Shown here: positions 867 to 18,485 of the stretch, one piece after another
How the letters are laid out: each line of letters begins with the position of its first letter
Numbering within the stretch: position 1 is the first letter of the stretch
Source: a virus
DNA: 24,149 nt
Virus record (IMG/VR): IMGVR_UViG_3300030380_005221
Span: 1-24,149 of that record
Reading direction: 5' to 3' (one strand)
Notes under the pieces: model-generated
Seen by the model: only the letters and a program-made list of their open reading frames with translations
Databases searched by the model: none
Told to the model about the DNA's origin: nothing
Translations under genes and position numbers: made by a program

Positions 867-2102
867 TTATCTCTTCTTTTTCTTCTTTTTATACTTTTTG
901 GCAGTTTCTTTATTTTGTTGCTTTTTCTTCAAATCATCAATTTGTGAATCCATTTCCTTCATCATCTGTTGTTGTTGCATTTGCTGCATAATGTTAGTAT
1001 AACTTTCGTAGTTTTGCCTAACTCTCTCTTTTTGTTCTGGTGGGATTAAATTTTCCTCAATAAGTCGTTTACATGCGGCATATCCCATATGAGGTTTACC
1101 TGCATAAAAAGCAGTTGCACCAATTTCATCCAGTAACCCATACTTATATACTTCCTCCTGAATGAAAAGAATATCATTGTCTGGATAAGGAATTCCGATA
1201 CCAGTGCTTGCGTGCATAAATGCCAAAGCATTTTTACCCATAGAACGATAAATTCTTGATATCTGATATAAAGGTTCTGCTCTGTCAGGTTTATAGTTAT
1301 AGCAGTCCTCGAATGCTCTAATTACGTCCATATTAGGTTCGCCTTTTATGCCCTTAAGAATTGCAACTCTATACATGCTATAGAAAACTTCCTCAGGCCA
1401 TCCACCTATATCAACTCGTTTCTGATACGCTTCGAGTGAATTATCCCATTGTTGAGAATCGAAGTATGACTGTGCTAGGTAAAATTGATACCTCGCATTA
1501 TCCGGATCATCCTCCAAAGCATTTCTCAGAGTTTCAGCATCCCTTTCATACTTTTCTACTGGAGTTATACCCACATTTCGATTACCCTCAGTTCTAGCCT
1601 CTACGCTATAGTTTCCAAACAATCGACTAACTTTTGCATTTTCATTATCACACGCTGCATACTCGTGAAGTATGCCCTCATATCTCCACCTAGAAGAAGT
1701 TTTAAATATTTGATTTCTCCACCATACAAAGTCACCCCTCTGTATTTTTAGGGAGTACGCATCAGCATCAGCATCATCGGGTAGTTTCAACTCACCCACT
1801 AAAGAGTCATCTGCATCAATAACCCACGCATAGTCTGCTTTATTATCGGCATTACGAAACGCTTCGGTACGAGATCCAATATTACCTGCATGATTACCAA
1901 ATCCCTTCCAATCAGAAAGGTATACTTCACCGGGAACACCCAATTCATCCATTATTTCTTTTATTTTATCGGGAGTTCCGTCTGTAGATCCCGTATCAGT
2001 GATATCATATCGGTCTACGAAGGGAGCGACGGAACGCAGACACCTCTCGATAACGTGAGTTTCATCTTTAACAATCATACACAGAGTAATAGTTGGTTTC
2101 AT
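867..2102 (-). CDS. GT2 glycosyltransferase with TPR-like region and poly-lysine tail
   Basis: The protein has 411 residues. The N-terminus carries the family 2 GT-A signature: MIVKDE at 9-14, DTGSTDGT at 36-43, and the metal-binding DADD at 96-99. It therefore probably transfers a sugar from a nucleotide donor in the cytoplasm. Residues about 184-300 look like TPR-type helical repeats (NARYQFYLAQSYFDSQQWDN), a common partner of this GT2 type. The last 40 residues are unusual: a Gln/Met-rich stretch (about 372-381), then a Lys-rich end with seven basic residues closing the protein (404-411 KYKKKKKKR region). An AGGA sits about 11 bases before the ATG, after a 34-base gap. It is the last gene of the carbohydrate cluster and sits directly before the collagen-like fibre gene. 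Donor and acceptor are unknown. Confidence 0.88.
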   Translation of the reverse strand: MKPTITLCMIVKDETHVIERCLRSVAPFVDRYDITDTGSTDGTPDKIKEIMDELGVPGEVYLSDWKGFGNHAGNIGSRTEAFRNADNKADYAWVIDADDSLVGELKLPDDADADAYSLKIQRGDFVWWRNQIFKTSSRWRYEGILHEYAACDNENAKVSRLFGNYSVEARTEGNRNVGITPVEKYERDAETLRNALEDDPDNARYQFYLAQSYFDSQQWDNSLEAYQKRVDIGGWPEEVFYSMYRVAILKGIKGEPNMDVIRAFEDCYNYKPDRAEPLYQISRIYRSMGKNALAFMHASTGIGIPYPDNDILFIQEEVYKYGLLDEIGATAFYAGKPHMGYAACKRLIEENLIPPEQKERVRQNYESYTNIMQQMQQQQMMKEMDSQIDDLKKKQQNKETAKKYKKKKKKR

Positions 2103-2136
2103 GATAAAAAATCCTTTTGTTCATTGTATGTATAGT

Positions 2137-2811
2137 TCATTTCCTACGTATCCATGAACTCCACCCATTTCTTTCTGCCTCGTGTCCAACACATATCCAA
2201 TCATTATCTTCGCTTAGGTGAAGTTTAGTTTTGTAGTTTTTATATTCATTATCATCATCGAGAAGAATTATACTTACTCTATCTTTAACTAATAAAAATT
2301 CGTCATATCCAGAAAATTCGCTACCATCAATCAAACACAGATCATAGTCTTCTGTCAGATTATTTAAAACCCCTGTATCTGATCCTTTAAAATGAACTAT
2401 ATCCTGATTGTACCAGTTGATACGGGATTCGAGGTCCTCTCGTACAGATTCCAATTCTCTGCCTTTCAAGGAGTTCAATACTTCCCTATGCTCGATACAG
2501 TACGAGATATAATCTTCATAATTTTTTAATGAAAACGAATCATATGAAATACTGGTATTCTTATGACATTCCACAAAAGAAAAGTTTTCTGTATTTTTTT
2601 CTAGATCACTAAAATATTCAGTTGGCTCCATACAAACTAGTTTAGTATTTTCCGTCTGATTAGCCTGGAGTGCAGCGGCAAGACATTGTGTGGAGCCATT
2701 GCCGCTACCAGAACCTATCTCTATAACTCTCTGAATTGATTTATTATTAACGATTAGACTAACAATATATTTACCAAAATTTGTACCATAGTGTATCTCG
2801 GGAGTTCTCAT
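2137..2811 (-). CDS. SAM-dependent methyltransferase-like protein
   Basis: The protein has 224 residues. Motif I of class I SAM methyltransferases is clear at 29-40 (VIEIGSGSGNGS). A later strand, DLCLIDGSEFSGYDEF, resembles the acidic post-motif region of the Methyltransf_24-like group often found in glycan clusters. The start is supported by GGA about 9 bases before the ATG, with a 17-base gap from the preceding gene. In this setting an O-methylation of a sugar, or of a small precursor, is plausible. The substrate cannot be read from the sequence, and another small-molecule methyltransferase role is possible. The next gene is the TPR-containing glycosyltransferase. Confidence 0.75.
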   Translation of the reverse strand: MRTPEIHYGTNFGKYIVSLIVNNKSIQRVIEIGSGSGNGSTQCLAAALQANQTENTKLVCMEPTEYFSDLEKNTENFSFVECHKNTSISYDSFSLKNYEDYISYCIEHREVLNSLKGRELESVREDLESRINWYNQDIVHFKGSDTGVLNNLTEDYDLCLIDGSEFSGYDEFLLVKDRVSIILLDDDNEYKNYKTKLHLSEDNDWICVGHEAERNGWSSWIRRK

Positions 2812-2828
2812 TTTTATATTCCAGTTCT

Positions 2829-3272
2829 TTATTTTAAATAATCAACATAATCAGAACAAATACCAAAAACCTCGGTGGGGTTCCAAGAAACCAAATCTTC
2901 CTCGGACAACAACGGTATTATACACTGATCATTTACTTCTCTCAAATCATGGGCCCATATTAAACCATTACTAATAATTGTGTATCTTTCTTCTTCATGG
3001 AAGAATAATTTTAATTGATCATAATTCAATAGAAACTGCAAAGAATTAAAATTTTTACAATGTATCCATAAATTTTTAGACCTACCAAGTAACCATTCCA
3101 AATCAACCATACTAATCGGTTCATCATGACCTAAAAATAATTCACCCTTTACCACCCAAACATCTATTTCTACGTCATATCCCTTACCTATAGACTCATC
3201 AATATATGATTGAGTATTTTCTCTTTTTAAATTGGGACCGTTGGTATTTCCCCTGTGGGCTATTAATTTCAT
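2829..3272 (-). CDS. Short glycerophosphodiester phosphodiesterase-like protein
   Basis: The protein has 147 residues and resembles the GDPD TIM-barrel family. It carries AHRG at 5-8 (catalytic-type His-Arg), ENT at 18-20, the metal-binding ExD at 35-37, and LGHDEP at 48-52 with the second His. It is much shorter than usual GDPDs (about 230-300 residues), so only a compact half-barrel-like core is present. Either it is a dedicated small subfamily or a reduced copy. The intact catalytic residues argue against decay. The ATG overlaps the previous stop as ATGA. Clustered with a nucleotidyltransferase and a HAD phosphatase, it may act on a phosphodiester or sugar-phosphate intermediate; this is inferred. 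Confidence 0.65.
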   Translation of the reverse strand: MKLIAHRGNTNGPNLKRENTQSYIDESIGKGYDVEIDVWVVKGELFLGHDEPISMVDLEWLLGRSKNLWIHCKNFNSLQFLLNYDQLKLFFHEEERYTIISNGLIWAHDLREVNDQCIIPLLSEEDLVSWNPTEVFGICSDYVDYLK

Positions 3273-3565
3273 ATTTCTTCAATTCTCATTGTCTTATCAT
3301 CATAGAAAATATCGTAATAGGGCTTATCACATCTAAGTTTATGATGTTTCGCACCCCAATTAGATAATTGAGATTTTGTTAAATCAAACCAATCAATACC
3401 GCTACGACTTCCTCTTGCAGTCCAATACACTATTGTATTTCCCTCGTCATATAGTCTATTAATTTTATCGATATTTTCTTGGATCGGTTTTGCATCTTCA
3501 TACACTCTTGGGTTGTCCGGCGTATTGCATATTGTTTCGTCAACATCAACGTAAATCACTCTCAT
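3269..3565 (-). CDS. Small HAD-family phosphatase of capsule/polysaccharide type
   Basis: The protein has 98 residues. HAD motif I is DVDET at 7-11, with nucleophile Asp7 and acid/base Asp9. Motif II is the Thr in YWTARG (47-52). The motif III Lys is in CDKPYYD (Lys81), and the motif IV acidic pair is FYDDK (Asp89, Asp90). No cap domain is visible, so this is a minimal HAD core. The same compact type occurs in bacterial polysaccharide clusters. It probably removes phosphate from a sugar or polyol phosphate. It overlaps the upstream nucleotidyltransferase gene by 20 bases and the downstream GDPD-like gene by ATGA, so the three are likely made together. Confidence 0.8.
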   Translation of the reverse strand: MRVIYVDVDETICNTPDNPRVYEDAKPIQENIDKINRLYDEGNTIVYWTARGSRSGIDWFDLTKSQLSNWGAKHHKLRCDKPYYDIFYDDKTMRIEEI

Positions 3566-4373
3566 AATAATCTTTCCAATAGCGATAACAATTCAATAAG
3601 TCATCTTCATTTTTAACTTGACCTTTATTTAAAATAGAGTTCCATGCCTCAATATTATCCACCTCTTCGGGTGTACCCATAACCGTGGCAAAAGGTGTGT
3701 CATAATAACCAACCAATAACCCATCATTTATTAATAGGTTATATACAAGAGTTACATAATATTCCCCGTTGTATTGAATATTATTAATGACTGCTTCATC
3801 AAAATATTTTTTTATGTAAGAACCTTTACTAAAGTAGTAAGTTCCGGTGGAGGCATGTTCATTCATTGGATTATCTGTGTAGCACTCTTTTTCTTTTATT
3901 TCTGTAACTAAATTATTAACAGTTCTCATAAAAGCCATTTTTGTATTGTTGAGTGTATGCGGATGAAATCCAGAATGCGACAATATACAACCGTCTAACT
4001 TATTTTTCTTCACATACTCCAAGAAGTCTTCTCTATCCCATAAATATGGGTTATCGCAATAAGTAACTACAACCTCTTCGTCGTCATCTATTAAATCGTA
4101 AACCTGCTGAACGGTAAAAACTGGGCCCTTTTTGTGGGAGGGCATCGATACAATTTTACATTTTTTGCAAATTTCGTGTAAAACTTCTTTCATATTTGTT
4201 TGGGACAAATGATCCTCATTACAAATGAAAATAAACTCATCATCAACAGAAAACATATCGACTATATGTTCTATTACTTTTTTGTTTGCAACATGTATTA
4301 ACGGTTTTGGATCAGTATATCCTGCATCCACAAATCTTTGACCTAGCCCGGCCATGGGAACAATAATTTTCAT
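3546..4373 (-). CDS. Sugar-phosphate nucleotidyltransferase
   Basis: The protein has 275 residues. The N-terminal signature MAGLGQRF (7-14) followed by PKPL (22-25) is the nucleotide-binding loop of the NTP_transferase family. YCDNPY around 105-110 supplies the metal-binding Asp (Asp107). It should couple a nucleotide to a sugar 1-phosphate or similar compound, making an activated donor in the cytoplasm. Nucleotide and sugar are not identifiable here. A cytidylyltransferase role would suit the RfbH gene in the same cluster, but the sequence is not an obvious RfbF. The ATG overlaps the preceding kinase-aldolase stop as ATGA. Confidence 0.82.
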   Translation of the reverse strand: MKIIVPMAGLGQRFVDAGYTDPKPLIHVANKKVIEHIVDMFSVDDEFIFICNEDHLSQTNMKEVLHEICKKCKIVSMPSHKKGPVFTVQQVYDLIDDDEEVVVTYCDNPYLWDREDFLEYVKKNKLDGCILSHSGFHPHTLNNTKMAFMRTVNNLVTEIKEKECYTDNPMNEHASTGTYYFSKGSYIKKYFDEAVINNIQYNGEYYVTLVYNLLINDGLLVGYYDTPFATVMGTPEEVDNIEAWNSILNKGQVKNEDDLLNCYRYWKDYYESDLR

Positions 4374-5731
4374 ACTAAAGATTTCCTATATTTTTCCTCT
4401 TCCATACCACTCAGTTTATGTATTTCCTTTTCCGAAAGAAAATTAGAAGTCAGTCCGACTTCTCTGTGCAAACTCAACATATAATCATTAACAGATCGCA
4501 TAGATTCCGGCAACACCACAGCATCAGGAAATAAAAACCCATGAACTTTATTTTTTGTGGAAAATTGTTTAAAATTCTTAGAGTTTTTAAGTAACCAAAT
4601 TTTACATAATTGGTTTATTTCCATACTAGTTGTAAAAACTTCCTGAAAAGAATAACCCGAACAAATCAAACCATGACTCTCTAATAAATTTATAGTGTTT
4701 TCTGAATTGGGTATAAAGTTATTCTTCAAGTCTTGTCCCGGAGTAAAGTATGGAACGTAGTTATAATCATAATCCTTTAAGATTTCAGAAACAATTTTTT
4801 TAGATTCCTTGGAGCAAAGAATAGTATTCAAATGAATAGGATGTGTATGTAAAACAAAATTATGTGGTATCTTTAAATGTACCCCGTACTCCATAGATGG
4901 TCGATTTTGACTAAAGTCTAGAAGGTTTCCCTCACTATCACATAAACTAAACCCATCGAGTAAAGTAACATCTCCCATATTTTTCCCAGATGAAGTTATC
5001 ACCATCTTATCTTCGAATTTATAGGAGATGTTCCCGCCTTGGTGTTGAACTAAATCATATTCAAGAGAAGTCATTTCGCAAAGAGAAAGAAAATCTCTAT
5101 GCCTATCATACATGGTTTTTATTTTTTTTCCTATTTCCTTACCGACACCCGTTACATATGTGCATTCGAGATGAACCTTTTTATCTCTTTTTTCTTCGAA
5201 TCTAATAATTATATCAGCCTTTTGTTTCTGTGGTTCAATATATAAGGATTCATCAATTTCTCTTCTTTTTATTGCCGACTTTACTTCATCAACAGTATAT
5301 CCCCGCTTTGTAGTATCTCTCTCAACTTTCCATTGTGTCAGTAAATCTCTCTCTGTTTCTACAAAAATACCAATGTCACATAATTCAGACATAGTACCAT
5401 ATAGAGCATGTAAACCCTCATACAATATGATTTCTTTTGGATCAATATTAACAGGAGCGTCAAATTTTCCAGTGTCGTGATTGTATCTTTTTCTCATTAT
5501 TGATTCACCGGAAATTAGTTTTTTTAAACTTTCAATCTCTTCATGTAAATTATTAGATGATGGATTCAAATGTGTGTGTATGTTCCAATTGGTATCTCCA
5601 CGTTCCCACTTGTGAGCATCATCACCATTTATAGTCACTACATCATTACACCCAAAAATAAAATATAAAAACTTAGATAAAGTACTTTTACCTACACCAG
5701 AACTCCCAGTTATACAAATAAGATTTTTCAT
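4370..5731 (-). CDS. Fusion: uridine kinase-like P-loop kinase + class II aldolase
   Basis: The protein has 453 residues and two domains. Residues 1-180 resemble uridine kinase/phosphoribulokinase: Walker A GSSGVGKST at 9-17, then KRGYTVDEV and IKRREIDESLYIEP near 142-167, as in that family. Residues about 205-400 resemble class II aldolase (fuculose-1-phosphate aldolase/adducin fold): GGNIS at 232-236, SSGK at 247-250, catalytic-type Glu281, metal ligands HTH at 295-297, and a third His in HGL at 353. The pairing suggests phosphorylation and aldol cleavage or condensation of one carbohydrate intermediate in a single polypeptide; this is inferred. The frame is continuous with no stop between domains. 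It starts in an ATGA overlap with the previous gene and ends in another with the nucleotidyltransferase. Confidence 0.82.
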   Translation of the reverse strand: MKNLICITGSSGVGKSTLSKFLYFIFGCNDVVTINGDDAHKWERGDTNWNIHTHLNPSSNNLHEEIESLKKLISGESIMRKRYNHDTGKFDAPVNIDPKEIILYEGLHALYGTMSELCDIGIFVETERDLLTQWKVERDTTKRGYTVDEVKSAIKRREIDESLYIEPQKQKADIIIRFEEKRDKKVHLECTYVTGVGKEIGKKIKTMYDRHRDFLSLCEMTSLEYDLVQHQGGNISYKFEDKMVITSSGKNMGDVTLLDGFSLCDSEGNLLDFSQNRPSMEYGVHLKIPHNFVLHTHPIHLNTILCSKESKKIVSEILKDYDYNYVPYFTPGQDLKNNFIPNSENTINLLESHGLICSGYSFQEVFTTSMEINQLCKIWLLKNSKNFKQFSTKNKVHGFLFPDAVVLPESMRSVNDYMLSLHREVGLTSNFLSEKEIHKLSGMEEEKYRKSLV

Positions 5732-6630
5732 TTATCAGAAAAAATTTCAGACTCATCAATTATTCTATTCATTTGTTCTTTTTGTTTATCGAAGGGACGA
5801 TAACAATGTAAATCAACAACATGTTTCTGTTTTAATAGATTAATATCATACACATAATCATTTTTCTCATCTGACCACATGCTCCTATCGATTCTGTTTA
5901 TTCTATTATCGTAATGATAACCTATAAATTTTATCTTATTATCAGATAGTGCATTATAAAGCATCACTGATGAATAATTTTCTTCTGCTAACCAATAAAA
6001 ACTTTCAAAATTCATTAGTTCATCTTGGGATGGTTTTGGCCACGGGGGTTGACAGTGTGCTCCGTGACCATAAATTCCAGAGTCTACTATATGACGTATT
6101 TGCTCATCAAAGGATCTATTTAATTCGTACAAATTAATAAAATTACTACCCTTAGAAACATGATAATGTGCTGGTAAGTCTGCACCACTATCGTGACAAC
6201 CATATCTAATTCGCCTAAGAACCGCCGGACCTTCCTTTATAAAGCCGTCCAGAACACCTCGCCTGACAACAGATATTGCTGAGAAATTTAAATGTAGATA
6301 AGAATCTTCTGGTGCAGAATCTATATTCGATGTAAAGTATTCTTTATTGAGAGGAATAAGATCAATATCACCAATCATCCAAGTTTTTTCTGGATCGGTT
6401 TTTGTATAATCAAATTTGGACCATGTTATCTGTAAGACCTTTGGCAAGTTTTCAATAAATTCTCTCTCGATAATAGTCCCATATTCTTCAGACATGTCGG
6501 TGTTACTCTTTTTGCCATAAAGAATGCAGATAGGTTCTATTCCCAGAGCAGTTTTATAAATTTTGGACTGGATGTTCCAGAACTTACTATATTCTTCTGA
6601 TGTGGAAAATATTACATTGTCAATTTTCAT
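5728..6630 (-). CDS. Unrecognised protein, possible DxD glycosyltransferase
   Basis: The protein has 300 residues and I do not recognise a family. The clearest feature is a predicted strand ending in DID at 88-90 (WMIGDIDLIPL), the pattern of GT-A glycosyltransferases in which the acidic pair binds a metal and nucleotide sugar. Residues 141-190 are rich in Tyr, Gly and His, and several Trp-containing segments follow, as in carbohydrate-binding proteins. No signal peptide or membrane segment is visible. The gene overlaps its upstream neighbour (an SDR) by 11 bases and the downstream kinase-aldolase by ATGA, so it is part of the cluster. A transferase role rests on the DID motif and context only. 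Confidence 0.55.
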   Translation of the reverse strand: MKIDNVIFSTSEEYSKFWNIQSKIYKTALGIEPICILYGKKSNTDMSEEYGTIIEREFIENLPKVLQITWSKFDYTKTDPEKTWMIGDIDLIPLNKEYFTSNIDSAPEDSYLHLNFSAISVVRRGVLDGFIKEGPAVLRRIRYGCHDSGADLPAHYHVSKGSNFINLYELNRSFDEQIRHIVDSGIYGHGAHCQPPWPKPSQDELMNFESFYWLAEENYSSVMLYNALSDNKIKFIGYHYDNRINRIDRSMWSDEKNDYVYDINLLKQKHVVDLHCYRPFDKQKEQMNRIIDESEIFSDK

Positions 6631-7399
6631 TACAATTATCTTTCATAATTTTGTAGGTTTTCTCTATACCAGATTCCAACCCATAAGTCTTAATAGGCAA
6701 ATCACTCACCCCACAATAAAATCCATAATCTTTTGTTTCTATAAAAACAGGAACAGTATAATTATCTAGATCATTTATAATGGAAGCAATTTCTAATAGT
6801 GTTTTTTTCCCTTGATACGAACAATTAATTTCTTTTTCAAGGTTATCATTGTTAATATAGTATTCTACCAAAGAAATTAAATCTTGCATATAGAAAAAAT
6901 CCATAATTTTTTCCGAGTGTATGATAATTGGTTGTTTATTAATATAACGATTTATACTTGATTTTATAAATCTTCTATCCAGTTCGTTCTCATCAAAAAC
7001 TGCGAATACTCTCAGGTTATAGAAATTATCAGTATTTCTTATGGACTCAGATATTATGCTCTTGCTCATACCATATGGAGTTTCTTTATGAAACAGTTCT
7101 GCACCAGATCCAAAAGATATTAACCTACCGAAAGATTTTTTATTTGACAATAAATTATAATACATCATCAAATTTTGCCGAAGAACATCAGGGCCGTCGG
7201 GAGACAACCTACTTCCCCCGACGGCCGCAGTATGAACAACAACATCAAATTCTCTAGTTCTAAACCACTCAGAAGTAAGAACGGGATCCGATAGATCAAA
7301 ATCATTCCTAGTGACACTAGTTATATTGTACTTACCAGAAAACCCTTTAACAAGACTTTTGGCAATATATCCATTACCACCTGTTACTAATATATTCAC
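6620..7399 (-). CDS. Extended SDR, NAD-dependent sugar-nucleotide epimerase/reductase
   Basis: The protein has 259 residues. The Rossmann motif GGNGYIA is at 7-13 and the catalytic Tyr-x3-Lys is YGMSK (Tyr109, Lys113). HTAAVGG (56-62) and the later DFFYMQDL resemble GDP-fucose synthase and related 3,5-epimerase/4-reductases. That would suit the two GT10 fucosyltransferase-like genes in the cluster, but a ketoreductase acting after the thiamine-diphosphate enzyme (YerF-like role) is also possible. The start is a GTG forming a GTGA overlap with the PanB-like stop; no upstream alternative reproduces the nucleotide-binding strand NILVTGG. The 3' end overlaps the next gene by 11 bases. Confidence 0.8.
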   Translation of the reverse strand: MNILVTGGNGYIAKSLVKGFSGKYNITSVTRNDFDLSDPVLTSEWFRTREFDVVVHTAAVGGSRLSPDGPDVLRQNLMMYYNLLSNKKSFGRLISFGSGAELFHKETPYGMSKSIISESIRNTDNFYNLRVFAVFDENELDRRFIKSSINRYINKQPIIIHSEKIMDFFYMQDLISLVEYYINNDNLEKEINCSYQGKKTLLEIASIINDLDNYTVPVFIETKDYGFYCGVSDLPIKTYGLESGIEKTYKIMKDNCNEN

Positions 7400-8319
7400 T
7401 TGTCTTTATCGGTTACCGTATTTGGAGTTGCTGAGTGATTTGTCGGGAATCCTTGATCCGTTTCATATTTCCACTTAGAATCTCCAAGCAATTTTTCAAG
7501 TTCCTCTTCTTTAATTTCATAGAAGTTTTCCTCTGCTGGAAATTGTCGGCTACGAACTTCATTAACATAATCGGTAAGAGCACTTGCCATAATTTGACCT
7601 GCTTCACAGTATCTCTTAACAAACTTAGATTTAAATTCCCAGAAAAGTCCCATGAGATCATGGAAAATAACCAACTGCCCATCAACCTCATCACCTGCAC
7701 CAATTCCATAGACAGGAATATCCAATTCCTTTGCAATCATTCCGGCCGGTTCCTTTGGCATCGCTTCTAGGAGAAGCGCGGAGCAGCCCGCATCCTGTAA
7801 TTCTAAGGCTTGCTTCAGAACAATCTCTGCTTGTTTTGCAGTCTTGCCCTGAACCTTATATCCACCAAGTTTTGCTCGTGTATGTGGAGTAAGTCCAAGG
7901 TGACTCATAACCATGATACCAGCATCACAGATTGCTCTGATTCGCTCCGTCATTGCACCCTCTACCTTAACCATATCACAACCAGCAACGATAAACCTAC
8001 CGGCGTTCTCTACCGCGAGTTCATTCGACTGCTGATATGACATATAGGGCATGTCACCAATAATTAAGGCATTCTTTGCTCCCCTACAAACTGCTTCGGA
8101 TGACGCAATCATATTATCCATAGTAACCGGAATTGTTGTCTTGTGACCAAGAGTTGTCATTCCGAGAGAGTCACCGATCAAGATAGCATCAACTCCAGCC
8201 ATGTCTGCAATCCTTGCTTGAGGATAATCATACGCAGTCACCAGAACTGTAGGGTCATTATTCTTTTTATTGTTGTTGAGTGTTAAAATTGTTTTTTTAG
8301 TTTTGCTGTCCGCTGGCAT
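7396..8319 (-). CDS. panB: 3-methyl-2-oxobutanoate hydroxymethyltransferase-like (PanB family)
   Basis: The protein has 307 residues; E. coli PanB has about 264. The PanB fold is clear from VTAYDYPQAR (27-36) through GIGAGDEVDGQL (205-216). Residues matching the PanB active site are present: Asp50 and Asp89 (metal), Lys118, Glu120, His140 and catalytic Glu185. The known reaction transfers a hydroxymethyl group from methylene-tetrahydrofolate to alpha-ketoisovalerate, giving ketopantoate for CoA synthesis. Residues 1-22 form a Lys/Asn-rich extension and the C-terminal 40 residues are also extra. The gene lies between a thiamine-diphosphate enzyme and an SDR, so it may act on a 2-oxo group of a glycan precursor instead; this is inferred. 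Parts are visibly more GC-rich than downstream genes. Confidence 0.88.
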   Translation of the reverse strand: MPADSKTKKTILTLNNNKKNNDPTVLVTAYDYPQARIADMAGVDAILIGDSLGMTTLGHKTTIPVTMDNMIASSEAVCRGAKNALIIGDMPYMSYQQSNELAVENAGRFIVAGCDMVKVEGAMTERIRAICDAGIMVMSHLGLTPHTRAKLGGYKVQGKTAKQAEIVLKQALELQDAGCSALLLEAMPKEPAGMIAKELDIPVYGIGAGDEVDGQLVIFHDLMGLFWEFKSKFVKRYCEAGQIMASALTDYVNEVRSRQFPAEENFYEIKEEELEKLLGDSKWKYETDQGFPTNHSATPNTVTDKDK

Positions 8320-8320
8320 A

Positions 8321-11097: not shown

Positions 11098-11744
11098 AAT
11101 ACAAAATCTTCATATGATTGACCTATAAACTCAGGAATTTCATTTTCTAATCTCTCTGTAGGATATTTATTTCCCCCAAGATGAGTGCTTTCATCATGAA
11201 CTAATGCACTTTTAATTTTGGGTATGATGTAATTCCAAAGAAACTGCTGATCCACTTGAACATTGGTATCAAACTCTTCTCCCAATGTTAACTTATGCTT
11301 CTCTACTAGAGAAGAAAAATCAGGAACAAGGTTACCCTTTGCTCCCCACATCCCAGCCATCATAGGAACTGCATGTTCCACATTGTCTCTCATTATATGG
11401 TAATCATGCCCAGATTGTATCCACTCCTCCACAGCAGAGGCCTCTCTTCTGCCTAACCGAGAATCCAAATCCCTTACGATAAAATATTCAACATCAGATT
11501 CCTGAAGAGGGAAGAATCTAATTAGTCTTTGACATTGTGAATCTATTTGATCATGCATGAAGACTTCGCAATTATCATATTCTTTCATTTTTCGTATAAG
11601 TTCAGGTGAAGTATTTTCTTTAGAAATATAATATCTACAAATCCATCCGGGATAATAGGTAGAAGCCAATTCTAAGTTTTCAATAGCACCACTAGTATAC
11701 TTCTTGTCATTCCCCCATAGACTAAAACATATTAATTTTTTCAT
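11094..11744 (-). CDS. Putative DxD glycosyltransferase-like protein
   Basis: The protein has 216 residues from the ATG at 11744, which forms an ATGA overlap with the upstream stop and has GGGAAG upstream; an in-frame TTG at 11756 is less likely. VRDLDSRLGRRE (90-101) has the form of a metal-binding DxD in a GT-A glycosyltransferase. It is followed by HIMRD and GMWGAKG (116-137), a combination I associate with small glycosyltransferase-like proteins in marine phage and bacterial glycan clusters. No membrane segment is visible. The function as a sugar transferase is inferred; donor and acceptor are unknown. The next gene, a 4,6-dehydratase, starts in another ATGA overlap. Confidence 0.65.
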   Translation of the reverse strand: MKKLICFSLWGNDKKYTSGAIENLELASTYYPGWICRYYISKENTSPELIRKMKEYDNCEVFMHDQIDSQCQRLIRFFPLQESDVEYFIVRDLDSRLGRREASAVEEWIQSGHDYHIMRDNVEHAVPMMAGMWGAKGNLVPDFSSLVEKHKLTLGEEFDTNVQVDQQFLWNYIIPKIKSALVHDESTHLGGNKYPTERLENEIPEFIGQSYEDFVL

Positions 11745-12529
11745 AGATCTTCCCAAAATATACCAGTATCAGTTGTTCCCCAGTACCCAGTGATCAACGC
11801 TGAAATGTGGATCGGGAAAACTTCTTTGGGTAAAGAGTTAACGTACTTCCATCTTTCATAAATGTTTTCGTGACCACTATACCAAGCATCTTTAAATTTA
11901 ACATCCTCGTCGAAATAATAACTGTAATGATCAAATATAGGACTCAGCATCTTACCTTCTTTATCCTCACATCCCTCCAGAGTTGGAGGTTCATGACGAA
12001 CAAAAGATTCACCTTCCCAATCCCATAGTCTGATGTAACCCCCATCCCTTCCTTCACCCCAATGACCTTTTGCGAGCAAATTCTTACCAACATAATATCT
12101 ACTCATAAACCCGGCATACTTTAGATTACCTTCCGTCAGTTCTTTCTCTCCCTGATCAAGTGCCTCTGCTGTCCACTGTTCATCGATGTCAAATTCCCAA
12201 AGAAAACATTTGTCAGTGAGTTTCTTGACTTCTTCGATTGCACGATTTACCTGATCGTCTTTAGAATTCCAGAAACCATCAGAGGGAACGTATACTAAAT
12301 TGGATTCTGTTTTCGCCAACTCTTCCATAAACTCTCTAGTACCATCGACACTTGCACCGTTATTGTGATATTCATCAGGAATGGTTTTACACCACTGAGT
12401 GCTACCATTAGATTGGGATGCGCCTTCTACTACCACCCACTTATCACAATTATCTAATATAAATCTATATTGATCATTGTGTAACAAATGATGTTTGCCA
12501 TTTAAAATAATACTAAAGATTACTCTCAT
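11741..12529 (-). CDS. Putative glycosyltransferase with DID motif (GT2/GT17-like)
   Basis: The protein has 262 residues. It starts with a strand, MRVIFSIILNG, followed by WVVVEGASQSNGST (31-44), reminiscent of the GT2/GT17 nucleotide-binding strand. FLWEFDIDEQW (109-119) carries the DxD-like DID at 114-116. These suggest a GT-A fold acting on a nucleotide sugar. The rest is rich in Trp and Tyr. A good SD (GGAGAG, 6 bases upstream) supports the ATG, which overlaps the upstream gene by 17 bases. The acceptor is unknown. Confidence in a transferase function is moderate; confidence that the gene is real is high. Confidence 0.68.
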   Translation of the reverse strand: MRVIFSIILNGKHHLLHNDQYRFILDNCDKWVVVEGASQSNGSTQWCKTIPDEYHNNGASVDGTREFMEELAKTESNLVYVPSDGFWNSKDDQVNRAIEEVKKLTDKCFLWEFDIDEQWTAEALDQGEKELTEGNLKYAGFMSRYYVGKNLLAKGHWGEGRDGGYIRLWDWEGESFVRHEPPTLEGCEDKEGKMLSPIFDHYSYYFDEDVKFKDAWYSGHENIYERWKYVNSLPKEVFPIHISALITGYWGTTDTGIFWEDL

Positions 12530-13298
12530 CTATCTCTCCAAGGGATTTTACGGATCTAAACTTAGATCCGTAATTAAAGGTTTCTGCGGGACACCATACT
12601 GTAAAACTTTCCACATTCTCAATTGTCCATTTATTCATGCAAAGGTGTAGTGGACCCGTGTTGACACCTACAATATGTTTAACATTTTTAGATAATTTTG
12701 CAATGTCCACTACACTAAAATTATAATCCAGAGTACAAGGAAGGTCAAGATATTTTGTAGTTGTAATAACCTTTTTATTCTTAAACTGCAACCGTTCAAT
12801 AAAACTTGATACCTCTTCTTCAAAATTTGGAAAGGGAATGCTCATGTTTTGACTATTGATAAACAAATAATCGTAAGAGTCGATGGATGTCTCGCAAGAA
12901 GACTCCAAAGAGGATTCATTGTAGATCATGTCTGATTTTTTAGAAAACGGACATTCTATTCCCATTTTGTCGGATAAAATCTTAGATAAAATGAGAAAAA
13001 ATGTTCCTTGATCAGAATCATCGCCAAAAATTACATCAGAATCATCACATATCTGAGAATAATTATGAGCACCTATCCATGTGTTAATAAAATTTTCATG
13101 ATCTGTATCAGCAGGAACTACCGAATATAAATTAACCCCATCATTTCCTATAAACTCTTTCAATTGGGAGTGATATGCTGGATTGCATAGAAAATTAAAA
13201 GTTACATTATTGCACTTAGTTGCATGTATTAAAAAATGCAACGTCTGTATACAATCACCCAAATGATACTGATTATAACAATTAATCACTCGTTTCAT
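12513..13298 (-). CDS. GT9/heptosyltransferase-like protein
   Basis: The protein has 261 residues from the ATG at 13298, which makes an ATGA overlap with RfbH and has GGGG 7-10 bases upstream. An upstream in-frame TTG (13313) is less likely. HLGDCIQTLHFL near the N-terminus (12-23) resembles the G-D-x-I loop of ADP-heptose:LPS heptosyltransferases (GT9, GT-B fold). VGVNTGPLHLC (210-220) resembles their conserved TGPMHLA donor-binding segment. The protein is shorter than typical GT9 members (about 320-350 residues), and the middle is not recognisable. A glycosyltransferase or GT-B-like role is inferred. Confidence 0.65.
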   Translation of the reverse strand: MKRVINCYNQYHLGDCIQTLHFLIHATKCNNVTFNFLCNPAYHSQLKEFIGNDGVNLYSVVPADTDHENFINTWIGAHNYSQICDDSDVIFGDDSDQGTFFLILSKILSDKMGIECPFSKKSDMIYNESSLESSCETSIDSYDYLFINSQNMSIPFPNFEEEVSSFIERLQFKNKKVITTTKYLDLPCTLDYNFSVVDIAKLSKNVKHIVGVNTGPLHLCMNKWTIENVESFTVWCPAETFNYGSKFRSVKSLGEIDESNL

Positions 13299-14608
13299 TT
13301 TAAATCCCCGCAAAACTGATCCACAATTTTTTCAATATAATCGAGTTGCTCTGGAGTAATGACCGGACTAGTTCCCAAGAAAAATGTATCAGTGGTAACT
13401 TTTCTTGCATTTGGATAATCACGAACAATTTGATTCTGATCCATGAGGCCTTCGTAAGCAGGCTGTAACATAATATTACCAGCAAAGTACGGTCTAGTTT
13501 GAATCATTGCATTCTCTAAATGATCTACTATATCTTTCCTTGCAAAAGGAGCATTATCTTTTATGGTCAAAGCAAATGCAAACCAAGCAGGATCCGAGTG
13601 CTCTGTTTTCTTGGGAATTACAAAATAATCATCATACTTAGAGAATATATCACATAATCTTTTATGATTATACTTTCTCTTTTCTATGATCTCCGGGAGT
13701 CTATCCAACTGTACTAGACCCATCGCTGCCTGTAAATCTGTAGGTTTGAGATTATATCCTATCTCATCGTACACATACTTGTGATCAAATATTTCATCAG
13801 GTAACGCAGGTAACCAATTAGAAAAACGGTTCTTACATGTCCCATTCTTCAGAAGACCTGCCTTTTGACCCACACAATAGCATCCTCTTCCCCACTCACG
13901 AAAACTCCTAGCAACAATTTCCTGCATCTTGGTATTACATGCAACAAATCCACCTTCACCCATAGTGATATGATGTGCGGGATAGAAAGAACAAGACGCG
14001 AAGTCACCGTAACTACCTAAAGCCCTATCCTTGTAGGTGGATCCCAGAGCGTCACAGCAGTCCTCTAATAGAATGAGTCCATACTCATCTATTATCTCCA
14101 TTAGTCGATCCATATTAGGGGGGTTTCCGAGAACATGTGCAAAGGTTATAATCTTACAACCCTCCTTCGCACGTTCCTCAACCTGATCTAAATTTAAATT
14201 TAGAGTATCTAATTCAATATCAACAAATACAGGTTCAAATCCTACTTGAAATATAGGATTTATTGTAGTAGGAAATCCGGCAATAGGAGTTATTACTTTA
14301 GTGCCTTTAGGAAAATTTGTCAATCTTTTTGATGTCAACGCAGACATCATTATAAGATTGGAACTGCTTCCACTGTTAGTTAATACACCAAACTCCTTTT
14401 GCATCAATTTAGGAAACTGATTTTCGAATCGAATGCCATTTTTACCAAGAACCAACCACCCATCAAGTAGTGTTTTAATAGAAGCAGTATATTCCTCTAC
14501 ACCAAAATATGGTCCTGCATATTGAACCCAGTCCTTTCCCGGTGTCCATGACTTCTTTTCATTCTTTTCATCGATAAATTTTTCTACTAGTTCTAAAATT
14601 TCTTTCAT
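13295..14608 (-). CDS. rfbH: RfbH/E1-type CDP-4-keto-6-deoxyglucose 3-dehydratase
   Basis: The protein has 437 residues, like the Yersinia E1 enzyme as I recall it. It has the aminotransferase fold of the DegT/DnrJ/EryC1/StrS family, but the PLP-binding Lys is replaced by His in SFYPAHHITMGEGG (His212). This is the hallmark of PMP-dependent 3-dehydratases. Cys185, Cys243, Cys245 and Cys258 reproduce the E1 [2Fe-2S] pattern C-x57-C-x-C, with a longer last spacing (x12, where E1 has x7). Asp186 matches the cofactor-binding Asp next to the first Cys. The enzyme removes the C3 hydroxyl of a 4-keto-6-deoxy NDP sugar, giving 3,6-dideoxyhexoses. Its electron-transfer partner (E3/RfbI) is not in the window, so a host or distant gene would be needed. 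Confidence 0.92.
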   Translation of the reverse strand: MKEILELVEKFIDEKNEKKSWTPGKDWVQYAGPYFGVEEYTASIKTLLDGWLVLGKNGIRFENQFPKLMQKEFGVLTNSGSSSNLIMMSALTSKRLTNFPKGTKVITPIAGFPTTINPIFQVGFEPVFVDIELDTLNLNLDQVEERAKEGCKIITFAHVLGNPPNMDRLMEIIDEYGLILLEDCCDALGSTYKDRALGSYGDFASCSFYPAHHITMGEGGFVACNTKMQEIVARSFREWGRGCYCVGQKAGLLKNGTCKNRFSNWLPALPDEIFDHKYVYDEIGYNLKPTDLQAAMGLVQLDRLPEIIEKRKYNHKRLCDIFSKYDDYFVIPKKTEHSDPAWFAFALTIKDNAPFARKDIVDHLENAMIQTRPYFAGNIMLQPAYEGLMDQNQIVRDYPNARKVTTDTFFLGTSPVITPEQLDYIEKIVDQFCGDLK

Positions 14609-14625
14609 AATGTATAATTATCACT

Positions 14626-15333
14626 TCACTTATGTTTAAAGACGTATCGATCTCCGATGTTTCCACCAGTATGCTTAGATTCGGCGTGATTATAAATTTG
14701 TTTAACCAATTTAAATTTAGACTTCATTTTTTCAACTTGTCCAGTATCATGTCTAATATCAATAATGATGCGCCCTTCGGGGTGTAAAGTTTTCTCAAAC
14801 AAATCCATATAGGTATCAACATTATAATGCCAACCACATGACAAGAGTGAAGTTATGAGATGAAATTTCTTTTCATATAATTCATCATGCTCATCAACTT
14901 CAAACGTGTGGATTTTTTCATCAGGAACTCCGTTTTCGGTCATTATCTCACGAGCAGCACTCATGCTGTTATATCCTCTATACTCCTCATTGAACCCAGA
15001 AATCTTTGTAGTATCGAGTTCGGTTTTATCCAAAAGAAAAATATCAAGAACCCTACTCTTTGGATAATAATTATCAGGATAATGATTGTAAATTGCCACA
15101 TCAATCAAACTCAAGCCACAACCAATGTCCAAAGAATTTTCACAGAGTTGTGGAAGATAATCCTTAATCATATCATAGTCTGTTTGATTCATCTTTGTCA
15201 ATGCCGCGTCAACTTCCTCTTGGGGAGAATCTTCGGTAAGGGCATATTCTGTAGTAAGTCTGGTTCTCTGGGGAAACAGATACTTTAAATAGTCCTTATT
15301 AAAATTATTAATTTTACACGTTTCGGTTACCAT
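14626..15333 (-). CDS. SAM-dependent methyltransferase-like protein
   Basis: From the ATG at 15333 the protein has 235 residues. GGAG lies 9 bases upstream of this ATG, and it begins 1 base after the upstream TGA. In-frame ATGs at 15342 and 15348 are possible. NSLDIGCGLSLIDVA is a class I methyltransferase motif I. LLSCGWHYNVDTYMDLFEK and GRIIIDIRHDTGQ fit motifs IV to VI. Substrate unknown; sugar O- or N-methylation would suit the cluster. A GT2 gene precedes it and RfbH follows after 17 bases. Confidence 0.78.
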   Translation of the reverse strand: MVTETCKINNFNKDYLKYLFPQRTRLTTEYALTEDSPQEEVDAALTKMNQTDYDMIKDYLPQLCENSLDIGCGLSLIDVAIYNHYPDNYYPKSRVLDIFLLDKTELDTTKISGFNEEYRGYNSMSAAREIMTENGVPDEKIHTFEVDEHDELYEKKFHLITSLLSCGWHYNVDTYMDLFEKTLHPEGRIIIDIRHDTGQVEKMKSKFKLVKQIYNHAESKHTGGNIGDRYVFKHK

Positions 15334-15334
15334 A

Positions 15335-16177
15335 TCATACATCTCCATGAATATTCATTCCCCAATCATTGAGGTTTGGAATATTATATTTTTTTACATT
15401 TTCTTTAATGAACTTATATTTGTAACTTTCTTTCAAATCCTGTTTAGAATATATCTCAGGATCCACCTTCAGATCAAAATCGAAGTCAACATATTCCCAA
15501 TCAAAATTTGCAACAGATTCGTCATACGCAGAGGGAGGAGTAACATCATGACCATAGGTAGCATGATTAACATAATCAGTTACTTTCCAGAAATATTGTT
15601 TAACAGCCACAGTTGGTTTGTCTAACCATTGTAAATGTGCTATAAATAAACCGGGAGAATTGACAACACCATGTCTACCCGGATGGGGAAGATGTTCGGA
15701 GTGCATCTCCGCTTTTTTAAACTCAGGTCTAGTGGAGTAACTTGATATTCTGTCTTTGAAGTTATTTTTCCAAGGTCCATCAACTCTTACTCTATTCTTT
15801 CCGGTATACTGAATCCACGGACAATACAGTAGAGTATCTTTATTATTTTCAAGTGCTTCCTCTAATTGTTCCTTGCTTATGTGACCATCTAGATACTCGT
15901 CACTGTCCAAACAAATAATATTACCAGAATGCTTAAATGCCTCATCAAACAAAGCCTGTCTCACATTTGATTCTTTATGTGTGGCATCTCCAGCAGCCTC
16001 GGTTTTAAGAACAGACACAATATTAAACTCATCTTTATGTTCTTCTAACCACTCACTAGTTCCGTCAGTGGAACAATCATCCATAAAAACAAAAGCATCT
16101 GCATACTTCCGCCAAATAGGCATCATTTCTTTGATAAGAAACAATTCATTTCGGGTCATTGTTATTTGTACGATCAT
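15335..16177 (-). CDS. GT2-type glycosyltransferase
   Basis: The protein has 280 residues. MTRNE at 7-11, DDCSTDGT at 33-40 and the metal-binding CLDSDEYL around 89-96 are the signature of the Glyco_tranf_2_4-like GT-A proteins. It should transfer one sugar from a nucleotide donor. No membrane segments are seen. The preferred ATG gives the N-terminal strand MIVQITMTRNE and overlaps the upstream GT10 gene by 32 bases; a later ATG at 16159 would remove part of that strand. The order GT10-GT10-GT2 suggests sequential additions to one glycan, which is inferred. Confidence 0.85.
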   Translation of the reverse strand: MIVQITMTRNELFLIKEMMPIWRKYADAFVFMDDCSTDGTSEWLEEHKDEFNIVSVLKTEAAGDATHKESNVRQALFDEAFKHSGNIICLDSDEYLDGHISKEQLEEALENNKDTLLYCPWIQYTGKNRVRVDGPWKNNFKDRISSYSTRPEFKKAEMHSEHLPHPGRHGVVNSPGLFIAHLQWLDKPTVAVKQYFWKVTDYVNHATYGHDVTPPSAYDESVANFDWEYVDFDFDLKVDPEIYSKQDLKESYKYKFIKENVKKYNIPNLNDWGMNIHGDV

Positions 16178-17036
16178 GCTTTATTATTTCCTTAAAAATT
16201 CTTTCATCAAAGTTGGCATACTCTATCGCTCGTTTTTTGTTTTCTTTCATGACATCAAGTTTATTGAAATAATGTTCTGGAGTTATATCGTTAAGTTTCT
16301 CTAATAGATCATCTATTGTATCAAATAAAATCATTCCGTCAACATCAAAATAATCCTCTATATTGGTACATCCCCAATAAATTGGAATGCTCAATGTAAG
16401 AAAAGAATCAATCAGTTTTTCTGTGAAGTAGTTTCCTATTGCATGATTTTCTATACAAATGTGATATTGAGAATCGAATAGTACCTCTTTCTCCCCTCCG
16501 GGTAGAGGAGTGGGTGCATTTGAAAAACACTTTACACTGGTATAAAAATTTCTTGCTATAGGTATCTCTTCTTTTCTATTCCAAACTTGTTGCCTTAATG
16601 CGTAACCAGGTCGATTTAGATTGTACCAAGAAGCAAGAAAACTTACACTAAAATCTTTAGTAATACCATCAAAAGATGGACTATTATCTTCATATCTACC
16701 TAATCCATCAGGGTGTTTTATGTTTCCTCTATTTAACCAAGTGCTACCATACGGAAACTTTTTGGCATTCTCACAGAAAACAATAATTTCATCATCGGTT
16801 CCTAAAATAAGATCATACTTTTTATGATTATCAATGACCTCACTTATGGTAGATCGATTGGGTGACATCATAGATTCATTTGACAACACAAGAACTTTGA
16901 CAGCATTCGGATTATCGAATGACTCCATACGAGTAAAATGTATTTCCACCGGAAATGGAAATGTTAATTCATCAGAAAAAAGATAATCACCGTTCTTTAT
17001 TGTAGGTTTATAGGATTTTGTTTGCAAGTTCATCAT
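16146..17036 (-). CDS. GT10 (alpha-1,3-fucosyltransferase-like) glycosyltransferase, copy 2
   Basis: The protein has 296 residues. Residues 191-222 (YHICIENHAIGNYFTEKLID then IPIYWG) match the GT10 donor-binding motif: an FxxxxEN strand, then YxTEK, then (V/I)PxxxG. The C-terminal half is thus a GT-B nucleotide-sugar domain of fucosyltransferase type; the N-terminal half is divergent, as expected for acceptor binding. It lies immediately after another GT10 gene, overlapping it by 29 bases. The two proteins share the motif but differ elsewhere, so they are paralogues with different acceptors or linkages, not a recent duplication. The donor may be GDP-fucose or another 6-deoxy sugar. Confidence 0.85.
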   Translation of the reverse strand: MMNLQTKSYKPTIKNGDYLFSDELTFPFPVEIHFTRMESFDNPNAVKVLVLSNESMMSPNRSTISEVIDNHKKYDLILGTDDEIIVFCENAKKFPYGSTWLNRGNIKHPDGLGRYEDNSPSFDGITKDFSVSFLASWYNLNRPGYALRQQVWNRKEEIPIARNFYTSVKCFSNAPTPLPGGEKEVLFDSQYHICIENHAIGNYFTEKLIDSFLTLSIPIYWGCTNIEDYFDVDGMILFDTIDDLLEKLNDITPEHYFNKLDVMKENKKRAIEYANFDERIFKEIIKHDRTNNNDPK

Positions 17037-17856
17037 CAGCCATTTCTAAAGATCGTACTGTCTCTAAATTATTTTGAATATAAGGTTTCATAGATTCATA
17101 TAAGTCCGCACTCAAAGAGTCTATATCAAAATTATCATCTAATGATATAATTCCACGATCATCAAATCGATGTCCAATGTTCGTTGCACCCCAGTAAATG
17201 GGAACCGTTCCTACCGCAAAACAATCTGTCACCTTTTCTGTATAATAATTTGGAACAGATTCGTTCTCCATTACTACCGAGAACATATATGGACATATAG
17301 CAGATCGTTTATCATTCCATTTCAAATTTAAATCATCAGAAATACCTATTCGGGGAGAGTCACATGCACCCCCAAATAAATCTAATTTATTTTTAAACTT
17401 AGAAGCAATTTCATGCCTATATTGATGTCCGGGACATGCCAATTTAGGAGAAGCAACCATAGAACATAATTTTATTTTGTCGTGCATTCCCCATGACTCT
17501 ACAGGAATCCACGGAAAATTACTACCAGTTGAATTATAAATGAAACGATCATCAAGACCTAACAATTTTTGATTATTAGTAAATATAGCCTCGAACTCAC
17601 CTTCTTCTATAATAACTTCATAGAAGTCCTCCAGTGATTGTGCAAGTTGAGGAACTATTGCTGATGACTCACACACCCATCCATATCTCTTCTGATCAAA
17701 TCTCTTATCTATTTTGTTTGCATATAGAATAGAGTTATCGATCAAGATTTGAATATCTTGATGTTCATTTGACCATTCAAATGTTTTTGGTTTTAAATTT
17801 GAATTAGAAGATTGATCTGGATTGAATCCAGCACCCACACACTGTAGTTTTTTCAT
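17008..17856 (-). CDS. GT10 (alpha-1,3-fucosyltransferase-like) glycosyltransferase, copy 1
   Basis: The protein has 282 residues. The GT10 motif runs from CPYMFSVVMEN (188-198) through NYYTEKVTDCF (203-213) to GTVPIYWGATNI (216-227). The conserved Glu-Asn, Tyr-x-Thr-Glu-Lys and Gly-Thr-Val-Pro are all present. Upstream, SMVASPKLACPGHQYRHEIA and DLFGGACDS also follow the family pattern. Likely role: transfer of fucose or a related 6-deoxyhexose. The ATG forms an ATGA overlap with the preceding transferase gene, and the 3' end overlaps the second GT10 gene by 29 bases. No signal peptide or membrane anchor, so it is cytoplasmic. Confidence 0.88.
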   Translation of the reverse strand: MKKLQCVGAGFNPDQSSNSNLKPKTFEWSNEHQDIQILIDNSILYANKIDKRFDQKRYGWVCESSAIVPQLAQSLEDFYEVIIEEGEFEAIFTNNQKLLGLDDRFIYNSTGSNFPWIPVESWGMHDKIKLCSMVASPKLACPGHQYRHEIASKFKNKLDLFGGACDSPRIGISDDLNLKWNDKRSAICPYMFSVVMENESVPNYYTEKVTDCFAVGTVPIYWGATNIGHRFDDRGIISLDDNFDIDSLSADLYESMKPYIQNNLETVRSLEMADDELANKIL

Positions 17857-18485
17857 AGTATTCCCACTGTTTGTATTGCTAAAAGGTTACCATCTATACC
17901 CATTTTCTTTAAAACTTCTATCTTATCAGGAACGTCCGACATTCCCATCTCAATTACTGTATATTCATTCACATCCTGCGGCCATACACAGTATGTTGGT
18001 GGGAATACGCCATACTTCACCATTTCCTGGCAAGAACCAAATATTCCAAATAAAACTTCGTGATCAAAGTTTACATCCATATCCAATAAAACCTGTTCCG
18101 ATCGATTTATCCATTCGTCCAAGAAAAATAAAGCCCCATCCGTATAATTAAAATACAAAGGAGAGGCCTTCATTCCTCTGAGATCAGGAGATGAGGATGA
18201 AAAAGCAACATCAACATGTTCCGGAACCATATCAAATGCCTGTGGATATTGCCTAAAAACTGTATCAACATCAGTCCACACCAGTGGTTGTTTGAGTTCT
18301 TCCAGTTTATCTTTAATAAACTTTGGTTTCGATAAACAATTATTTCTATAGGAACCCAGAGATTCCTTTTCCTCTAGGTGTAAGTCTAGAGAAAAACGGG
18401 AAGACATTTCCCGAAGTCTATCCGCACACTTTGTGTAGTATTTATCCTCATTTACATCAGAATAAAAAGAAATCACTTTTGTCAT
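17853..18485 (-). CDS. Nucleotide-sugar transferase-like protein with DxD
   Basis: The protein has 210 residues. LVWTDVDTVFRQYP (68-81) contains the DVD metal site at 72-74, in the W-x-D-x-D context typical of Nucleotid_trans (GT77-like) and related GT-A proteins. Also seen: NYTDGALFFLDEW and FDHEVLFGIF, consistent with acceptor-side segments. The gene begins 6 bases after the RegA stop and is the first gene of the carbohydrate block in transcription order. It ends in an ATGA overlap with the first GT10 gene. Donor and acceptor unknown. Confidence 0.72.
   Translation of the reverse strand: MTKVISFYSDVNEDKYYTKCADRLREMSSRFSLDLHLEEKESLGSYRNNCLSKPKFIKDKLEELKQPLVWTDVDTVFRQYPQAFDMVPEHVDVAFSSSSPDLRGMKASPLYFNYTDGALFFLDEWINRSEQVLLDMDVNFDHEVLFGIFGSCQEMVKYGVFPPTYCVWPQDVNEYTVIEMGMSDVPDKIEVLKKMGIDGNLLAIQTVGIL

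Follow-up and report, generated by a model that had tools for sequence, protein, structure and literature searches.

What does a phage build with twenty consecutive carbohydrate-type genes lying beside its replication genes, and onto what is the product attached? This question is raised by IMG/VR record IMGVR_UViG_3300030380_005221 (G000; 68,147 bases), of which we analysed bases 1-24149, hereafter the window. A block of 20 consecutive minus-strand open reading frames (ORFs) occupies positions 867-18485 of this 24,149-base stretch, between regA and a gene for a collagen-like fibre, both also on the minus strand. An initial annotation had described a run of consecutive same-strand carbohydrate genes here, which stands, but had put their number at 19. 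Our results suggest that the block is probably an exchangeable glycan locus of a marine T4-like phage, whose core would make a 4-C-branched deoxy sugar by means of a PanB homologue and a YerE-like carboligase, the sugar being attached by soluble transferases. Large phage sugar clusters are known, whereas the conserved PanB-YerE module at the centre of the block looks new.

Results and discussion

The centre of the block consists of a gene for the PanB homologue (7396-8319; PF02548, 2e-98), the proposed synthase of a 4-hydroxy-2-oxo acid donor, and an adjacent gene for a thiamine diphosphate (ThDP) enzyme (8321-10135). Both enzymes had been named in the initial annotation, which overlooked their conserved arrangement as a two-gene module. 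When IMG/VR was scanned with the PanB of the window, 80 viral loci were obtained, at 71-94% identity, and a ThDP gene directly adjoins PanB on the same strand in 80/80, in the order ThDP-PanB in 61 and PanB-ThDP in 19. A broader scan returned 102 PanB relatives in 2.9 million viral contigs; the ThDP gene adjoins PanB in 80 of the 82 examined, and both exceptions are ordinary PanBs, one of them beside PanC.

The best PDB match of the ThDP enzyme is JanthE (8RPH), a YerE-like carboligase (PMC12188165), to which it scores about 437-442 bits, against 255 for plant acetohydroxyacid synthase (AHAS) and at most 269 for AHAS or Gcl. For all 84 ThDP proteins compared, viral partners and bacterial proteins together, the JanthE score exceeds those for AHAS and Gcl, and the three-domain ThDP enzyme is set apart from AHAS in the tree. 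By sequence comparison, the enzyme is a YerE-like carboligase and not an acetolactate synthase. The acceptor arginine of AHAS was not used as a discriminator, the position being mixed (R in 34 and P in 35 of the 84 proteins). The setting of the enzyme, in the block as in its relatives, is that of genes for 3,6-dideoxy-4-keto sugar synthesis, with RfbH and a dehydratase. RfbH (at least 200 bits) lies near PanB in 54 of the 80 viral loci, with a PAHH motif in 51 of these.

The standard annotation of such a pair would be panB plus acetolactate synthase, and a marine survey takes viral pantoate transferase as a booster of pantothenate and coenzyme A (CoA) synthesis (PMC8940887). Read in this way, the two genes would be auxiliary metabolic genes for pantothenate/CoA and valine, boosting host CoA beside unrelated glycan genes. 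The intact catalytic residues of PanB agree with this: in an alignment of 70 distinct viral-clade sequences, three of them from genome contigs, the catalytic and Mg-binding residues D45, S46, D84, K112, E114, H136 and E181 are kept in 70/70. We nevertheless consider this explanation improbable, because the ThDP partner is YerE-like in 84/84, RfbH is linked to the pair, and bacteria with two PanBs keep one of them beside PanC. Indeed, in three of four such genomes one PanB adjoins PanC (G004, G005, G007), and in two of them (G004, G007) the second copy lies in a YerE cluster. PanC, seen beside an ordinary viral PanB, is not needed for this PanB lineage, and none of the window ORFs is PanC-like by Pfam. 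A canonical PanB need not be linked to PanC, so that the missing PanC only lowers the claim that the present one is canonical. The PanB pocket was also considered as a proof of substrate and set aside: G135S, Q142H, V183M and P227S, although fixed across the viral clade, do not point to a particular substrate, V183M being partly common to cluster-type bacterial PanBs.

Three further enzymes surround the module. The product of 13295-14608 is RfbH, a pyridoxamine phosphate-dependent 3-dehydrase (NCBIfam RfbH, 472 bits; cut-off 423), with the motif SFYPAHHITMGEGG and a Lys-to-His change at the pyridoxal phosphate site when aligned to PDB 3bcx (364 bits). 3-Dehydrases of the RfbH/E1 type have four cysteines for a 2Fe-2S cluster, and in the 3bcx alignment three cysteines can be seen in this region of the window protein. 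The NDP-glucose 4,6-dehydratase (10129-11097) reaches 301 bits with TIGR01181 (cut-off 365) versus 75 bits with the CDP-glucose dehydratase model; this RmlB-type assignment points to dTDP rather than CDP as the nucleotide. The third is a short-chain dehydrogenase/reductase (SDR; 6620-7399; PF01370, 3e-16), the proposed reducer of the branch ketone; in most relatives with an upstream dehydratase, an SDR comes after the carboligase slot.

It is known that YerE takes acetaldehyde from pyruvate and adds it to a CDP-3,6-dideoxy-4-keto sugar, and that the YerE-like ErwE favours 4-hydroxy-2-oxo acids over pyruvate (PMC12247030). PanB of E. coli, for its part, converts formaldehyde and various 2-oxo acids to 4-hydroxy-2-oxo acids (PMC10127515, PMC7611260). 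From the gene families, their order and conserved pairing, the phylogeny, the bacterial parallels and the lack of membrane export genes, we infer the reactions, the PanB substrate and the glycan target as follows. Glucose would be activated by the nucleotidyltransferase of the block (3546-4373; GlmU/RmlA-like, PF12804 and PF00483 above cut-off, no NCBIfam cut-off reached) or by a host enzyme, and the RmlB-type dehydratase would convert it to a 4-keto-6-deoxy sugar. RfbH, with a reductase from the host, would remove O3 to give a 3,6-dideoxy-4-keto sugar. PanB would use methylene-tetrahydrofolate to hydroxymethylate a 2-oxo acid, pyruvate or another, and the YerE-like enzyme would decarboxylate the resulting 4-hydroxy-2-oxo acid and add it onto the C4 ketone. 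The newly formed ketone might then be reduced by the SDR and the sugar attached by soluble glycosyltransferases (GTs), most likely onto the fibre or baseplate proteins of the phage itself. PanB may alternatively follow the carboligase and modify the acetyl branch, and the gene data fit both orders; that PanB makes the donor is the simplest reading of them.

Bacterial parallels came from a genome contig collection covering 84,980 species. PanBs with at least 72% identity occur there in only three contigs, a Pelagibacter metagenome-assembled genome (L168) and single cells of Prochlorococcus (L169) and Marinimicrobia (L170), in all three within apparent polysaccharide gene sets, and the PanB-ThDP pair is also present in L168 and L169. 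In L169 (270-4633), PanB, the ThDP enzyme and a split transketolase-like pair stand in a row. The next PanBs, at 54-56%, include those of Omnitrophota (L173) and Chloroflexi (L171). The L173 operon runs RfbF-RfbH-RfbG-YerE-PanB-SDR and is, judged by its gene content, a yersiniose-type operon with PanB inserted; the order in L171 is YerE-PanB-DegT-SDR. Among 74 further bacterial PanB loci (L174-L247), 73 are without a ThDP neighbour, the one that has it being from Lachnospiraceae (L204; PanB-YerE-RfbF). The L204 PanB falls among Bacillota PanBs and not within the cluster-type clade; PanB and YerE thus appear to have been brought together on at least two occasions, the Lachnospiraceae PanB having been recruited separately. 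Two PanB genes lie close together in several Bacillota (L190, L192, L220, L224, L232).

The viral PanBs form a single clade (SH-aLRT 100), whose sister group is the cluster-type PanBs of bacteria. Their ThDP partners are polyphyletic, with at least four changes forced on the tree of the partners. A single PanB lineage has therefore had several carboligases as partners. Other genes can also fill the slot that lies between dehydratase and SDR: a transketolase-type pair occupies it in two contigs whose records are without PanB (L100, L116), and NeuB with a YerE-like enzyme and no PanB is found there in three (L377, L378, L379). In these, NeuB may provide a 2-oxo acid donor of another kind; this is only suggestive, since several PanB loci also carry NeuB beside the dehydratase. 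We also noted a split transketolase pair in this slot, in place of YerE and PanB, in L374 and L376.

We propose that a distinct PanB lineage, found in marine phages and in a small number of bacterial polysaccharide operons, abandoned vitamin B5 synthesis to become a dedicated maker of a sugar-branching donor, that interchangeable YerE-like enzymes serve different keto sugars, and that phages exchange donor-plus-carboligase cassettes in the interval flanked by the dehydratase and reductase genes and so vary the sugars of a glycan on the virion or host surface. We regard the chances of this wider scenario as evenly balanced.

Several observations weigh against a dedicated branched-sugar locus of this kind. 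PanB has intact canonical catalytic residues, and I202 and L212 are ordinary at the engineered pocket positions, so that its sequence does not tell which 2-oxo acid it uses. The viral-type PanB of L170 (10001-10924) sits in a polysaccharide-type cluster with no ThDP neighbour. There are near-duplicates among the 80 viral loci, which are fragments, and only some ten of the contigs have confirmed phage hallmark genes. No partner reductase E3 for RfbH was found among the Pfam hits in the window, and no RfbF-like gene in the block or in the 80 viral loci. Finally, the evidence for a virion target, given below, is contextual in kind. The description of the block as a whole pathway was thus too strong, as it is without an E3 reductase for RfbH, RfbF, a flippase and a polymerase.

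As regards the carrier of the block, its upstream flank has the T4 core order rnh-45-44-(cpn10)-62-regA, that is, the clamp/clamp-loader/regA order of T4-like phages (45-44-62-regA) with a GroES-like insert, and the other flank the collagen-like fibre. The regA gene (18492-18893; PF01818, 1e-39) is the conserved upstream flank. The major capsid protein gp23 is encoded on the same record (G000 39469-40662; 451 bits; PHROG major head protein). With this gene order and gp23, the source is a T4-like phage. The GroES-like co-chaperonin gene (19292-19606) lies between gp44 and gp62; six relatives have it at the same site (L085, L086, L115, L137, L145, L153), others do not.

In T4, the DNA polymerase gene gp43 follows regA. 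The initial annotation had placed the block at this position, and relatives agree: where a contig includes gp43, this gene comes after the block, has the orientation of regA and lies 11-33 kb downstream of it (regA and polymerase at 60818 and 88382 in G011, 63857 and 29030 in G010, 96306 and 84136 in G012). The regA-gp43 interval of reference phages is about 0.2 kb in HTVC008M, 1.3 kb in S-SM2 and 2.4 kb in C48C1. It follows that this clade opened the regA-gp43 interval into a locus. The opened locus has conserved borders and variable content, with glycan genes first, then fibre and collagen-like genes, then gp43-uvsX-41. In G012, most glycan genes are instead upstream of gp45, and the GT2-TPR gene still adjoins fibre genes.

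The initial annotation had also raised the concern that the window might join phage and bacterial contigs, and "stuffer DNA" has been mentioned as a possibility for cyanophage lipopolysaccharide (LPS) clusters (PMC3037559). Of 80 IMG/VR contigs retrieved through regA, the majority of those reaching far enough have homologues of the first block genes after it, an arrangement seen in dozens of contigs. The junction regA / 17853-18485 / GT10 is repeated in independent contigs (for example L086, L092, L096, L100), the far junction between GT2-TPR and fibre in L092, L096, L374, G010 and G011, and both borders are seen in L092 and L096. Since the same junctions recur in independent contigs, the block is not a chimera. 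Moreover, its ORFs are intact and overlapping and the catalytic motifs are kept across divergent viruses. Functionless stuffer DNA or a chimeric assembly is, in our view, extremely unlikely.

Three destinations of the sugar may be considered. No polytopic protein (at least six hydrophobic segments) was found among 1562 ORFs in the 80 viral loci (0/1562), so no flippase or polymerase is encoded, and the reading as a Wzx/Wzy-type O-antigen or capsule cluster was rejected. The GT2-TPR gene adjoins fibre genes, and the GT at the regA border resembles a capsid-glycosylating GT. Together with the lack of polytopic ORFs, this context favours the virion over the host surface as target; we give the virion about an even chance, and the host surface a real but clearly smaller one.

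The same sugar chemistry could also serve to decorate host LPS or capsule during infection and so block other phages, as was proposed earlier for the LPS genes of P-SSM2 (PMC2984593). YerE sugars are normally parts of LPS (PMC12247030), the PanB-ThDP pair is present in contigs binned as Pelagibacter and Prochlorococcus (L168, L169), and a soluble GT could still act on lipid-linked intermediates of the host. This specific scenario is possible but rather doubtful, given the fibre genes adjoining the block and the 80 loci devoid of flippase, polymerase or other polytopic protein. A third destination would be phage DNA, hypermodified in the manner of the glucosyl-hydroxymethylcytosine of T4; phage GTs able to hypermodify DNA are among the work cited in PMC12619734. 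PF00303, the thymidylate-synthase/dCMP-hydroxymethylase family, was absent from eight related records, some of 117-186 kb and G000 itself a fragment, and the GTs of the block resemble GT2, GT10 and a capsid GT. Sugar modification of DNA is therefore very unlikely.

Other genes of the block

ORFs were identified with Pfam, NCBIfam, PHROG and PDB comparison, and the border ORF with AlphaFold and Foldseek. These family searches bear out a phage-borne block for sugar synthesis and transfer: besides the enzymes already described, Pfam or NCBIfam models support the GT2-TPR protein, a kinase-aldolase fusion, a second GT2 and two GT10-like ORFs, one of them below cut-off. Pfam gives no match for eight ORFs of the block, so that the count of GTs rests partly on motifs recognised by eye.

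From the fibre end, the collagen-like tail fibre gene (3-824; Pfam Collagen, 2.5e-20; PHROG tail fibre), cut by the contig end, forms the downstream border. It is followed by a GT2 with a TPR region (867-2102; PF00535, PHROG 13126), a methyltransferase-like ORF (2137-2811; PF13578, 2.7e-5, just below cut-off), a small ORF that by eye resembles the start of a glycerophosphodiesterase (2829-3272; no Pfam match, PHROG 34507 of unknown function) and a small HAD-like phosphatase (3269-3565; PHROG 1238; NCBIfam EcbF-BcbF weak, below cut-off). After the nucleotidyltransferase come a PRK/uridine-kinase domain fused to a class II aldolase (4370-5731; PF00485, 1e-34; PF00596, 2.5e-21) and a probable GT with a DID motif seen by eye (5728-6630; no Pfam/PHROG match). 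The kinase-aldolase gene together with 2829-4373 (glycerophosphodiesterase-like, HAD and nucleotidyltransferase ORFs) resembles a second conserved sugar module, and sets related to it are found downstream of PanB in L058, L059, L067, L071 and L073.

Beyond the dehydratase lie two probable GTs (11094-11756, DLD motif; 11741-12529, DID motif and a structure model of pLDDT 41, unusable) and a possible GT9-like one (12513-13313), all three recognised by eye with no Pfam/PHROG match. RfbH is then followed by a probable methyltransferase (14626-15348; by eye, no Pfam/PHROG match), a GT2 (15335-16177; PF13704, PF00535), a GT10-like, fucosyltransferase-type ORF (16146-17036; PF00852, 6.5e-4, below cut-off) and a GT10 (17008-17856; PF00852, 5.8e-7, above cut-off), the latter two syntenic in relatives. 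The upstream border ORF (17853-18485), without a family match, is indicated to be a GT-A glycosyltransferase by its predicted fold (AlphaFold pLDDT 91.5); its best Foldseek match is the PBCV-1 capsid glycosyltransferase 2p6w (E 4e-9, TM 0.65, 11% identity).

Gaps between block genes range from -32 to +34 bp, with +42 bp up to the fibre gene, and the overlapping ORFs make co-expression plausible. A late-promoter motif occurs at chance level only and gives no promoter evidence. Elsewhere on the record, three long ORFs in a row (G000 57378-67368) start with collagen-like or Gly-rich repeats, besides the window fibre, and an uncharacterised ORF of 2112 residues (G000 24898-31236) lies directly upstream of a DNA methyltransferase gene.

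Comparison with known systems

Large LPS-type sugar clusters have already been reported in T4-like phages, such as P-SSM2 and S-SSM7 (PMC3037559, PMC2984593). Those of the cyanophages P-SSM2, S-SSM7, S-SM2 and S-H68 resemble the present block as big sets of sugar-nucleotide enzymes and GTs in a T4-like genome, and S-H68 has a related RfbH (42.5%). Their positions differ: the cyanophage clusters of PMC3037559 are near hli03 or phoH and that of S-H68 comes after a baseplate gene, whereas the present block lies between regA and fibre/gp43. The GenBank phage collection yielded no clear PanB-YerE pair from a phage. Some "phage" PanB matches in GenBank look bacterial, as for Microcystis phage MaAM05 (L165, MW495066.1), with panB, panC and a suf operon.

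The bacterial yersiniose/erwiniose-type pathways (YerE, ErwE, JanthE) likewise combine a YerE-like ThDP carboligase with RfbH, a 4,6-dehydratase and an SDR. In contrast to them, the present block is carried by a virus, adds PanB as the proposed donor synthase, has an RmlB-type rather than a CDP-specific dehydratase and is without RfbF or E3. Viral panB described as a pantothenate auxiliary gene is of the same family with intact catalytic residues, but the present PanB belongs to a sugar operon, where its neighbour is a YerE-like carboligase and not PanC. Among the papers searched, none connected PanB with YerE or with branched sugars. Virus-encoded GTs also act in virion glycosylation, on the PBCV-1 capsid and on the capsid and tail tube of mycobacteriophages. 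The likeness of the border GT to that of PBCV-1 is at the level of the fold only, and virion glycosylation of the present phage is a prediction.

Conclusions

If the proposed pathway is true, viral panB would gain a reading other than that of the published CoA booster, and many viral panB genes annotated as CoA auxiliary genes would be sugar genes. Branched-sugar biosynthesis would likewise gain an extra enzyme step. The prediction of a specific sugar makes the function of the cyanophage clusters, once called possible stuffer DNA (PMC3037559), directly testable. Phages would also have a modular means of altering glycan chemistry, as bacteria do when they vary their O-antigens.

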